64,000 nt of DNA from Psychrobacter aestuarii. Lineage in GTDB: Bacteria > Pseudomonadota > Gammaproteobacteria > Pseudomonadales > Moraxellaceae. Made by a program: the position numbers and the translations under genes. Shown one piece after another: positions 14,937 through 18,000 of the stretch. The notes below the pieces were generated by a model. It made no database searches, had not been told where the DNA came from, and saw nothing but the letters and a program-made list of their open reading frames with translations. Within the stretch, counting starts at the first letter, position 1, and every line of letters starts with the position of its first letter. Where the stretch lies: NCBI RefSeq assembly GCF_904846035.1, contig NZ_CAJGYT010000001.1:2108001-2172000 (forward strand). The letters run 5' to 3'.

Positions 14937-15389
14937 ATGTTCGATGATGCGTTGTTTCAAAATCAATCTAGCCGCGTAAAACCTTCAGATGCCTATATGG
15001 GCGCTGCCAAGGCGGTGCTGCACGAGCTGGTACACACCACCAGTGGTATCGATGGGGTGCTGCTCGCCTCAACAGATGGCTTTGAGATTGTCTCTATTTT
15101 TCAAAAAGACTACGACGCGGGCAAGCTGTCGGCCGTCGGCAGCTCAATCTTGGCACTGGTGCAGGCGTTGACCGCCGAAGCCCAGCTGACGGGTTGTCGT
15201 TCGGTGATTTTGGACGCCAATAATGGCAAGGTCATGATAAGCTCAGTCGCCAATGAAAATCAGCCGATGATTATTATCCTTGTGACCAAACAACAAGTGC
15301 TACTCGGGCAAATCATGCACGGCATGAACAAAGCCACCAACGAATTGGTGGCGTTGGACGCCGAGCATAACGTTAAAGCGTCTGCATAA
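14937..15389 (+). CDS. Roadblock/LC7 domain protein, probable partner of the GTPase
   Basis: The 150-residue product matches the roadblock/LC7 fold: an N-terminal helix (AKAVLHELVHTTSGIDGVLLAS), a sheet with GFEIVSIF, a long helix (LSAVGSSILALVQALTAEAQ), then IMISS-type strands and a final helix. The family forms dimers that bind and often regulate MglA-like GTPases. The immediately upstream gene encodes such a GTPase. No signal peptide or membrane segment is visible. The stop codon is one base away from the stop of the convergent photolyase gene, with no terminator between them. Confidence 0.85.
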   Translation: MFDDALFQNQSSRVKPSDAYMGAAKAVLHELVHTTSGIDGVLLASTDGFEIVSIFQKDYDAGKLSAVGSSILALVQALTAEAQLTGCRSVILDANNGKVMISSVANENQPMIIILVTKQQVLLGQIMHGMNKATNELVALDAEHNVKASA

Positions 15390-15390
15390 A

Positions 15391-17061
15391 TTATTTGCTG
15401 TCTTTAAAAGTGGCAATGGTGTCTTTACGCGCCGCCTTGTGATCGACGATAGGGGCAGGATAATCAATATCGTAATAAGGATTGTCCTGCTTTTTGTCTT
15501 TTTGCTTGTTCTTGTCTTTTTTCTTTTCTTCTTTGTCCTTATCCCCAAATGCCTTGTTCAGCTTAGCTTCAGAGTGCAGGACATCCGCAGGCACGTCCGC
15601 GAGCTCAGGCAGCCATTTTTTGATAAACAGTGCGTCTTTGTCATGGCTTTTGCCTTGGCTAAAAGGATTCATGATGCGAAAGTAGGGCGCAGAGTCTGTA
15701 CCTGTCGAGGCGCTCCACTGCCAGCCGCCATTGTTTGAGACAAAGTCGCCATCAATCAGATTTTGCACAAAGTACGTTTCGCCCCAGCGCCAATCTATCA
15801 ATAAATCCTTGGTCAAAAACATTGCCACCACCATACGCAAGCGATTGTGCATAAAGCCTGTGGCGTTTAAGCAGCGCATCGCGGCATCGACAAGTGGCAC
15901 GCCTGTACGCCCGCAGCACCACGCGGCAAAGTCATCTTCGTCATACGACCAGTCCACCGCTTTATCCAGCTTTTTGTTATACGCCTCGTGGCGAATCAGC
16001 TCAGGCTTATCACACAGCACGTGGCGGTAGAAGTCGCGCCACGCAAGTTCACTACACCAGCGGGTGATGTCCGTCTCATCGCTGTCCTTGTTGCTGCGCT
16101 TGCGCTCTAGGTGCTCTATGGCGGCAAGGTAGCAGCGGCGCGGGCTAATCATGCCTGTCGTTAGATAGGCGGATAGGCGGCTGGTGGCGTGCGAATGCGG
16201 GGTGTCGCGGTGGGTATCGTAGTCGTCGATATCGTCGCTGATAAAGTCATGTAAACGCGCCTCTGGGGCGTCCATATCGGCAGGATAGTTGTCACGTGTG
16301 CGCGCCAACTGCTCGGCAATATTGATGTGTTTGAGCGCATCACGCTTTTGCCAGTCGTCTTGATAGGCGTTGACAATGTCTTTGGTTAAGGTGTCGATGC
16401 TGCTTTTGCTATCGGCATGCGTGACTTTTTTGGTTAATGCCTCGGCAAGCGATGTTACGGGCGCTGGCGTGTTTTCATTGACCAGAGTAGGGCTGTGACA
16501 ACTCATCGGACTGACGTCGAGATGCTGCTGCCACTTTTTATAAAATGGCGTAAATACCTTATACATCGTGCCTTCACCTGTGGTGATGCTGGCGGGCGGC
16601 AACACGCATTGGTCGTGATGGCGGATGACGCTGATATTGTGCTCGGCAAGATTGGCAATCAGCTGGGTGTCGCGGTTGATTTCGTTCTCTTCATATTCAT
16701 GGTTTGCCATCACGCAGGTGACATCGGTGTCGATACACAGCTGCGTTAATATCTCGGCGCAATCATCGAACGTATCACAGACCGCGACCGTTAATGTGAT
16801 GTTGAGTTTGTCTTTGAGTGCTTGAGCCAAATGCGGCAAACGGCGGGCGATAAAGTCCACTTGCGTCACCGCCGTGTCGTGCTGTTGCCACTGTTTGGGT
16901 GTCATAAAAAAAACAGCGGACACGTGGGCGCGGTCTTTTTGCGCTTTGTCACACAATGCGCTCAAGGCAGTGTTGTCATCGATGCGCAAATCGCGGCGAA
17001 ACCACATCAAATAATGCAGCGGCGTCAGTTGGTTGTTATCATCGGTTTTTTTATCAGCCAT
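15391..17061 (-). CDS. phrB: Deoxyribodipyrimidine photolyase (cyclobutane dimer repair)
   Basis: This 556-residue FAD enzyme splits UV-induced cyclobutane pyrimidine dimers using blue light. The N-terminal antenna domain starts LHYLMWFRRDLRIDDNTAL. The FAD domain includes WRDFYRHVL, GVPLVDAAMRCLNATGFMHN, DWRWGETYF and NNGGWQWSASTGTDSAPYFR, where active-site and electron-transfer tryptophans are expected. It is longer than E. coli PhrB (472). About 20 residues (roughly 507-526) are an almost pure Lys/Asp/Glu insertion just before the conserved tail YPAPIVDHKAARK, and a linker near residues 200-240 is also expanded. A good ribosome binding site (AAAAAGGAC) precedes the ATG. Confidence 0.96.
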   Translation of the reverse strand: MADKKTDDNNQLTPLHYLMWFRRDLRIDDNTALSALCDKAQKDRAHVSAVFFMTPKQWQQHDTAVTQVDFIARRLPHLAQALKDKLNITLTVAVCDTFDDCAEILTQLCIDTDVTCVMANHEYEENEINRDTQLIANLAEHNISVIRHHDQCVLPPASITTGEGTMYKVFTPFYKKWQQHLDVSPMSCHSPTLVNENTPAPVTSLAEALTKKVTHADSKSSIDTLTKDIVNAYQDDWQKRDALKHINIAEQLARTRDNYPADMDAPEARLHDFISDDIDDYDTHRDTPHSHATSRLSAYLTTGMISPRRCYLAAIEHLERKRSNKDSDETDITRWCSELAWRDFYRHVLCDKPELIRHEAYNKKLDKAVDWSYDEDDFAAWCCGRTGVPLVDAAMRCLNATGFMHNRLRMVVAMFLTKDLLIDWRWGETYFVQNLIDGDFVSNNGGWQWSASTGTDSAPYFRIMNPFSQGKSHDKDALFIKKWLPELADVPADVLHSEAKLNKAFGDKDKEEKKKDKNKQKDKKQDNPYYDIDYPAPIVDHKAARKDTIATFKDSK

Positions 17062-17182
17062 CGGGTGTCCTTTTTTTTAATTTTTTAACGTCAATTTAAG
17101 GTAAAAATAAAACAACTACACCAGCGAACGCCAGCGGGTACAAGATGGCTAAAAGTATGCTAGGATAAGTTTTTACGCGCAA

Positions 17183-17211
17183 TTGAAACCCCGCAGGATT
17201 AACATTATTAC
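17183..17211 (+). promoter_or_regulatory. Candidate trpF promoter with near-palindromic operator
   Basis: TTGAAA (17183-17188) and TATTAC (17206-17211) are separated by 17 bases. The -10 box overlaps a 16-bp near-palindrome, TTACCTGTACGGGTAA (17208-17223, seven of eight pairs), placed where a repressor could block initiation. The assignment is inferred from pattern only. Confidence 0.45.
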
Positions 17212-17244
17212 CTGTACGGGTAACAAATTGTCATCACTTCTTTA

Positions 17245-17303
17245 CCCCAAAGACCGCAAAATAAAGGGCATTTATGCTTGCGGGATTTGGGTTTGTCTTT
17301 TTT
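17245..17303 (+). terminator. Terminator-like hairpin in the trpF leader (candidate attenuator)
   Basis: CCCAAA pairs with TTTGGG and CCGCAA with TTGCGG, separated by a 2-base internal mismatch. Inside them ATAAA pairs with TTTAT around GGGCA. The stem is followed by TTTGTCTTTTTT. No gene upstream on this strand needs a terminator here, and the hairpin sits between the candidate promoter and the trpF start at 17362. Confidence 0.6.
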
Positions 17304-17361
17304 AGCCCATCGGCTTGTTGGCAGAGTGCAGCAAGCGCGGTCGAGCGATACAGGTGGCAGC

Positions 17362-18000
17362 ATGCAAGTGAAGTTTTGTGGATTTACCGAGGCAGCAGAC
17401 ATTCAGGCGGCGGTGACGCTGGGTGCGGATGCGATAGGCTTGGTGTTTTATCCACCCAGCCCGCGTGCGGTAGACATCGAGACGGCGCGTGAACTGGTCA
17501 AGGCAGTGCCTGCCTTTGTCAGCATCACCGCCTTGGTCGTCAATATCTCCGCGCAAGATTTACAAACACTTGCCGATTCAGTATGCTTTGATGTCGTTCA
17601 GTTCCATGGCGATGAGTCGCCCGAGCAGTGCCAAGCGCTGGCAGGTGCGATTAACAAGCGCTGGATAAAGGCGCTACGCGTCAATAAAGACACGCACAGC
17701 TTAGCCCGTATCACCGATGAGATTGCCGCTTATAGCGAGGCAGGCGCGAGCAGTGTGCTGTTAGACGCTTATCATAAGGATGCTTACGGCGGCACAGGGC
17801 ACCGCTTTGATTGGTCACTGATACCCAACGACAGCGCTGTGCCCTTGATTTTGGCGGGCGGGTTGACCCCTGACAATGCTGCCGATACCTTGCATCTGCC
17901 CATACAAGCGCTGGATGTCAGTGGCGGTATCGAATACGCCAAAGGCAAAAAGGACAAGGACAAGATGCAGGCATTTATAGCAGCAGCTAGCGGCAACTAA
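17362..18000 (+). CDS. trpF: Phosphoribosylanthranilate isomerase
   Basis: This 212-residue TIM-barrel enzyme isomerises phosphoribosylanthranilate in tryptophan synthesis. The family signature KFCGFT, with the catalytic cysteine at residue 6, opens the protein. FDVVQFHGDES, SVLLDAYHKDAYGGTG with the catalytic aspartate, LILAGGLTPDN and ALDVSGGIEY follow in order. The start is the ATG at 17362 after GGTGG. The frame upstream of it is leader. Near the C-terminus the sequence KGKKDKDK reflects an AAGGAC-type repeat in the DNA. It heads the trpF-SDR-trpB-trpA group. Confidence 0.95.
   Translation: MQVKFCGFTEAADIQAAVTLGADAIGLVFYPPSPRAVDIETARELVKAVPAFVSITALVVNISAQDLQTLADSVCFDVVQFHGDESPEQCQALAGAINKRWIKALRVNKDTHSLARITDEIAAYSEAGASSVLLDAYHKDAYGGTGHRFDWSLIPNDSAVPLILAGGLTPDNAADTLHLPIQALDVSGGIEYAKGKKDKDKMQAFIAAASGN

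Follow-up and report, generated by a model that had tools for sequence, protein, structure and literature searches.

Among described systems, the trpL attenuator of the E. coli trp operon places a terminator, preceded by another hairpin, between the promoter and a tryptophan biosynthetic gene. A broader group comprises the orphan premature terminators, intrinsic terminators in 5' leaders with no recognised sensor (Naville and Gautheret 2010, PMC2965389). The sensing parts of bacterial leader terminators are diverse and fast-evolving (PMC2965389), and Psychrobacter is absent from the text of that 2010 survey. In Sinorhizobium meliloti, trp attenuation produces the sRNA rnTrpL, which acts in trans (PMC7298713). 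At the DNA level, published reconstructions indicate that TrpR regulates trpR and trpE in most analysed gammaproteobacterial groups having TrpR (PMC5343134). A literature search found no paper joining Psychrobacter, trpF and attenuation.

The Psychrobacter trpF locus described here resembles each of these systems in part. Its putative terminator lies between promoter and biosynthetic gene behind another hairpin, as in E. coli trpL; however, trpF stands as a gene of its own and not in a trpE operon, the leader lacks a Trp-codon peptide, and the terminator forms without competition from the hairpin before it. If transcripts ended ahead of trpF, a short RNA would be freed as for rnTrpL, but rnTrpL encodes the leader peptide peTrpL and the trpF leader has no conserved frame of that kind. 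As with a TrpR operator, a CTAG-centred, near-palindromic site overlaps the -10, yet it has one CTAG where the trpR operon of the same genome has CTAG-TGTA-CTAG. The likeness to the orphan premature terminators extends to the intrinsic terminator in the 5' leader and the lack of a recognised sensor, and the trpF leader terminator appears to be a further case of these. The preferred reading, given a probability of roughly 0.6, is that a lineage-specific intrinsic terminator ends many trpF transcripts early, making it an orphan attenuator in the broad sense. The features of the locus, numbered within the window (the whole 64-kb stretch of DNA analysed), are:

15391-17061, - strand: photolyase gene (PF03441 and PF00875), divergent from trpF
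17150-17172, + strand: conserved trpF promoter element TAAAAGTATGCTAGGATAAGTTT, defined by genus-wide sequence conservation
17175, + strand: putative transcription start, placed by spacing (a purine ~9 nt after the -10; purine there in most relatives)
17179-17231, + strand: 5' hairpin HP1 (GCAATT/AATTGT, ACCC/GGGT, GCAGG/CCTGT), from folding
17218-17223, + strand: GGGTAA, candidate antiterminator strand (HP1 3' strand), pairing with 17242-17247
17242-17247, + strand: TTACCC, partner of 17218-17223 by 6-bp complementarity
17246-17291, + strand: predicted terminator hairpin, 46 nt, interrupted (fold, bulge-tolerant scan, sister-species constraint)
17292-17303, + strand: T-tract TTTGTCTTTTTT, read from the sequence and the same in the sister species
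17352-17357, + strand: Shine-Dalgarno-like AGGTGG of trpF, read from the sequence
17362-18000, + strand: trpF, phosphoribosylanthranilate isomerase, 212 aa (PF00697, 143.7 bits; NCBIfam PRK01222 models, up to 224 bits)

The genome is 2.8 Mb in size and the nearest relatives of its TrpF are those of Psychrobacter. The preliminary description held that the hairpin serves no upstream gene, and the neighbourhood agrees: the upstream neighbour is the - strand photolyase gene, and the nearest + strand gene upstream of trpF ends at 15389. The bulge-tolerant scan places a terminator-like site at 15442-15498, 53 nt past the end of that gene.

The hairpin arms, CCCAAAgaCCGCAA.. and ..TTGCGGgaTTTGGG, form a 6-bp base (CCCAAA/TTTGGG), a 6-bp middle (CCGCAA/TTGCGG), and a 5-bp top closed by a 5-nt loop, in the layout CCCAAA-ga-CCGCAA-a-ATAAA-GGGCA-TTTAT-gc-TTGCGG-ga-TTTGGG. 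The T-tract is broken by G and C, which weighs against the terminator reading. Together hairpin and tract have the make-up of an intrinsic (Rho-independent) terminator, a stable G+C-containing hairpin with a U-rich tract directly after it, and lie ~60 nt before the trpF ATG and downstream of the trpF promoter. The stability of the hairpin is ~-21 kcal/mol; for a 57-nt segment enclosing it the fold energy is -21.8 kcal/mol (z = -3.7, with 0/200 shuffles as stable). The bulge-tolerant scan across the 64-kb window picks it up, and by energy and T-score it resembles gene-end terminators, i.e. hairpins after stop codons. A simple consensus terminator scan missed the hairpin because its stem is interrupted. 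Read on the reverse strand, the hairpin is not followed by a T-tract, so it is taken as a + strand terminator. The interrupted hairpin and T-tract reported between promoter and trpF are thus confirmed on the trpF strand (17246-17303). A repeat or mobile element was considered and rejected, as the hairpin is single copy in the genome even with up to 3 mismatches and has no plasmid matches.

Comparison with a sister species (G071), whose TrpF is 94% identical, shows that changes are unevenly distributed. The promoter (0/29 columns changed) and the linker at 17235-17243 (0/9) are identical, the stem (17244-17291) has 2/48 changes and the tail 1/14, and HP1 has 11/60, the stretch past the tail 25/59, the upstream intergenic region 17/84 and the start of trpF 46/289. 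Linker, terminator, and tail combined (3/71) therefore differ from flanking noncoding sequence (42/143; Fisher p = 5.6e-6) and from the start of trpF (46/289; p = 0.011), estimates that come from one species pair and from adjacent columns that are not fully independent. Of the three changes in the terminator block, one converts an upper-stem A-U pair to G-U, one affects a loop base, and one lies just past the T-run. Both changes within 17244-17291 are compatible with the hairpin structure and the terminator stays intact. This constraint between species is the main evidence suggesting a cellular role for the hairpin.

The comparison of Moraxellaceae trpF leaders proposed in the preliminary description recovers the hairpin in two species but does not extend it to the family or genus. 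In the bulge-tolerant scan, a strong hairpin with T-tract occurs in 2/70 Psychrobacter trpF leaders, those of the window's species and the sister, which is too few sequences for a true covariation test. Applied to the 260 nt before trpF at eight Acinetobacter loci, the same scan found no strong terminator. By sequence, the hairpin is a trait of two species. Other Psychrobacter species manage without the terminator, which counts against the terminator reading.

The promoter has a far wider distribution. Its extended -10 consists of TATGC (17156-17160) and TAGGAT (17161-17166), with the CTAG at 17160-17163; there is no good -35 and TAGGAT is a poor -10. A DNA search matched the single stretch 17150-17174 in nearly all of 105 Psychrobacter genomes. 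With 0-1 mismatch, TRTGCTAGGATAAGTTT is found in 97/105 Psychrobacter genomes, nearly always as a single copy, and with up to 1 mismatch in 101/348 genomes of the family, 97 of which are Psychrobacter. The core TATGCTAGGAT is exact in 66/70 Psychrobacter trpF upstream regions, a set that includes the window's own, and one base off in the other 4. Across these 70 regions the motif lies 21 to 229 nt from the trpF ATG. It accompanies trpF whichever gene stands on the other side in a given species, and hence belongs to trpF. The candidate promoter upstream of the hairpin is thereby strongly supported, its core recurring before trpF across the genus at one copy per genome, and trpF transcription probably starts near 17175. 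A consensus scan of the 64-kb window found no promoter-like site from the terminator to the trpF ATG. One Psychrobacter group has a TATAAT 45 nt before the trpF ATG. In one species (L038) the promoter core lies almost at the trpF ATG, which suggests a leaderless or very-short-leader trpF mRNA. Separately, TGGGCTAGGATAAGTTT has four copies in a genome of another genus of the family (G299, e.g. L181) and one in G330; these are perhaps an unrelated repeat.

Most Psychrobacter carry an element, GATGCAATnnATTTG...TTAACAAATcaTCATCA, directly after the start site (17175-17236 in the window; leaders L039-L100). It occurs in 43 distinct versions in which GCAA and TAACAA are invariant, and a search of 40 genomes located the exact pattern almost exclusively at trpF. 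HP1 is an enlarged form of this genus-wide element, GCAATnn(A)TTTG...TAACAAAT..TCATCA: the window's species retains GCAAT and TAACAAATTG-CATCAC with the enlarged hairpin in between. HP1 folds at -14.6 kcal/mol in the window and -13.8 in the sister despite the 11/60 changes. Among the 43 distinct relatives, a seven-pair 5' stem forms in 258/301 cells, compared with 98-156 when shifted, and some double changes are seen. With several pairs near-invariant and the sequence conserved in its own right, an RNA structure and a DNA site are indistinguishable here. Candidate roles for the element are operator, RNA-binding site, and stability element. As most species have it without a terminator, its first role is not termination.

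The preliminary description also proposed that an operator acts together with an attenuator. An attenuator is plausible; the -10 is highly conserved, but not as a TrpR-type operator. The near-palindrome described there, AAAAGTATG-CTAG-GATAAGTTTT, is present but imperfect, its arms differing by an inserted base. The genome encodes a TrpR homologue (L216:2244-2516, genome C1 about 850743-851015) that scores 62 bits against PF01371, above Pfam's cut-off, and 60.3 bits against NCBIfam TrpR, just under the 67.25 cut-off. TrpE/PabB-like and TrpG/PabA-like genes follow it directly, and this trpR operon is preceded by a textbook TrpR-type operator, TTCTAGTGTACTAGAA (TTCTAG-TGTA-CTAGAA). The same TTCTAGTGTACTAGAA operator is found at the trpR of another species (L209), and a separate trpE (L215) and a trpG-trpD-trpC cluster (L217) are without a TrpR-type operator. 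A TrpR operator at the trpF -10 was rejected, as its single CTAG does not match the arrangement at trpR. The CTAG-N4-CTAG operator, two half-sites four bases apart, occurs in 0/70 Psychrobacter trpF upstream regions, making the CTAG in the trpF -10 poor evidence of TrpR control.

A classical ribosome-mediated tryptophan attenuator, in which a Trp-codon leader peptide stalls the ribosome and so chooses between antiterminator and terminator, would fit the gene and the layout of a 5' hairpin, a weak 2:3 pairing (GGGUAA/UUACCC), and a 3:4 terminator. The 2:3 pairing is kept in the sister, with ~4% of shuffles giving an equally long match. However, it overlaps the terminator stem by just 2 nt, taking only 2 bp from it, and immediately before terminator synthesis HP1 is favoured over it by ~3 to 5 kcal/mol. 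Folds of the growing transcript form HP1 first and the terminator second, side by side; because they fold consecutively without competing, termination would be the default and relief must come from outside. The remark that no leader peptide with tandem Trp codons is visible also stands, as no leader frame, including those starting with ATG or GTG, contains such codons, leaving no short ORF of the kind used in ribosome-mediated attenuation. The sole long frame, open in both species, starts with TTG at 17183, ends at a TAG past the T-tract, and contains a single TGG. It lacks a Shine-Dalgarno sequence, all nine codons that differ between the two species encode different residues, and the stops are not the same, so that no peptide is conserved; such an attenuator is very unlikely. 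The search for an antiterminator pairing with the GGGCA loop, also proposed earlier, gave no conserved partner: the leader's only GCCC, at 17305, offers 4 bp and the loop is altered in the sister. Covariance-model searches assign the leader to no known riboswitch, T-box, or other Rfam leader family, with zero matches up to E = 5 in 17000-17420 and up to E = 1 in the trpF upstream regions of seven relatives. Elsewhere in the window, 48766-48860 matches the Rfam Alpha_RBS family (alpha operon ribosome binding site) just over the cut-off.

The remaining alternatives assign the hairpin other roles or none. A trans-acting sRNA could be made from the trpF leader, ended by the terminator and using the unpaired linker CAUCACUUCUUUA as seed, with trpF expressed by read-through. 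The architecture of 5' hairpin, single-stranded linker, and terminator with U-tail, the identity of the linker in the sister, and the precedent of rnTrpL (PMC7298713) make this conceivable, if doubtful, and it is not exclusive of premature termination. More elaborate, and a touch more speculative, is the idea that the genus-wide element binds a regulator and, through the terminator added downstream in two species, came to control termination there. This would be an attenuator that responds to tryptophan but uses no leader peptide, and it might also release a regulatory sRNA. Strongly structured leaders can stabilise mRNAs, and HP1 provides a second stable hairpin ahead of the terminator hairpin. 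A 5' UTR structure protecting trpF mRNA, with an incidental T-run, is nonetheless unlikely, as the T-tract sits directly against the stem and stays unchanged next to a diverging downstream sequence (25/59). Terminators also commonly insulate adjacent units, and the hairpin might shield trpF, transcribed mainly from elsewhere, from unrelated read-through or antisense transcription from upstream. However, placed after the genus-wide trpF promoter, it would halt trpF's own transcripts too, the site at 15442-15498 already follows the upstream + strand gene, and the consensus scan gives no promoter-like sites past the hairpin, making insulation highly improbable. The absence of the hairpin from 68/70 Psychrobacter leaders would suit a functionless chance structure, but with the core segment more stable than every shuffle and the marked constraint between species, chance is the least credible explanation.

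Returning to the premature terminator, the start site, actual termination, the effect on trpF, and any regulation can be inferred as follows. RNA polymerase would start at ~17175 at the conserved trpF promoter and transcribe the 5' hairpin, then the terminator hairpin and U-tract. Many rounds would release a leader RNA of ~130 nt, and only read-through transcripts would reach trpF, so that premature termination sets trpF output. The terminator is probably a brake on trpF. Regulation would need an outside factor, either elongation rate or a protein or RNA acting on the 5' hairpin; a constant brake without regulation fits just as well.

If the terminator is just a fixed brake, its interest is local. 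The locus further draws attention to a trpF promoter and leader element that are strictly conserved throughout Psychrobacter. If termination is real, this would be a biosynthetic leader that recently gained a terminator on top of a pre-existing promoter and 5' element, for which the many terminator-free relatives would serve as natural controls.
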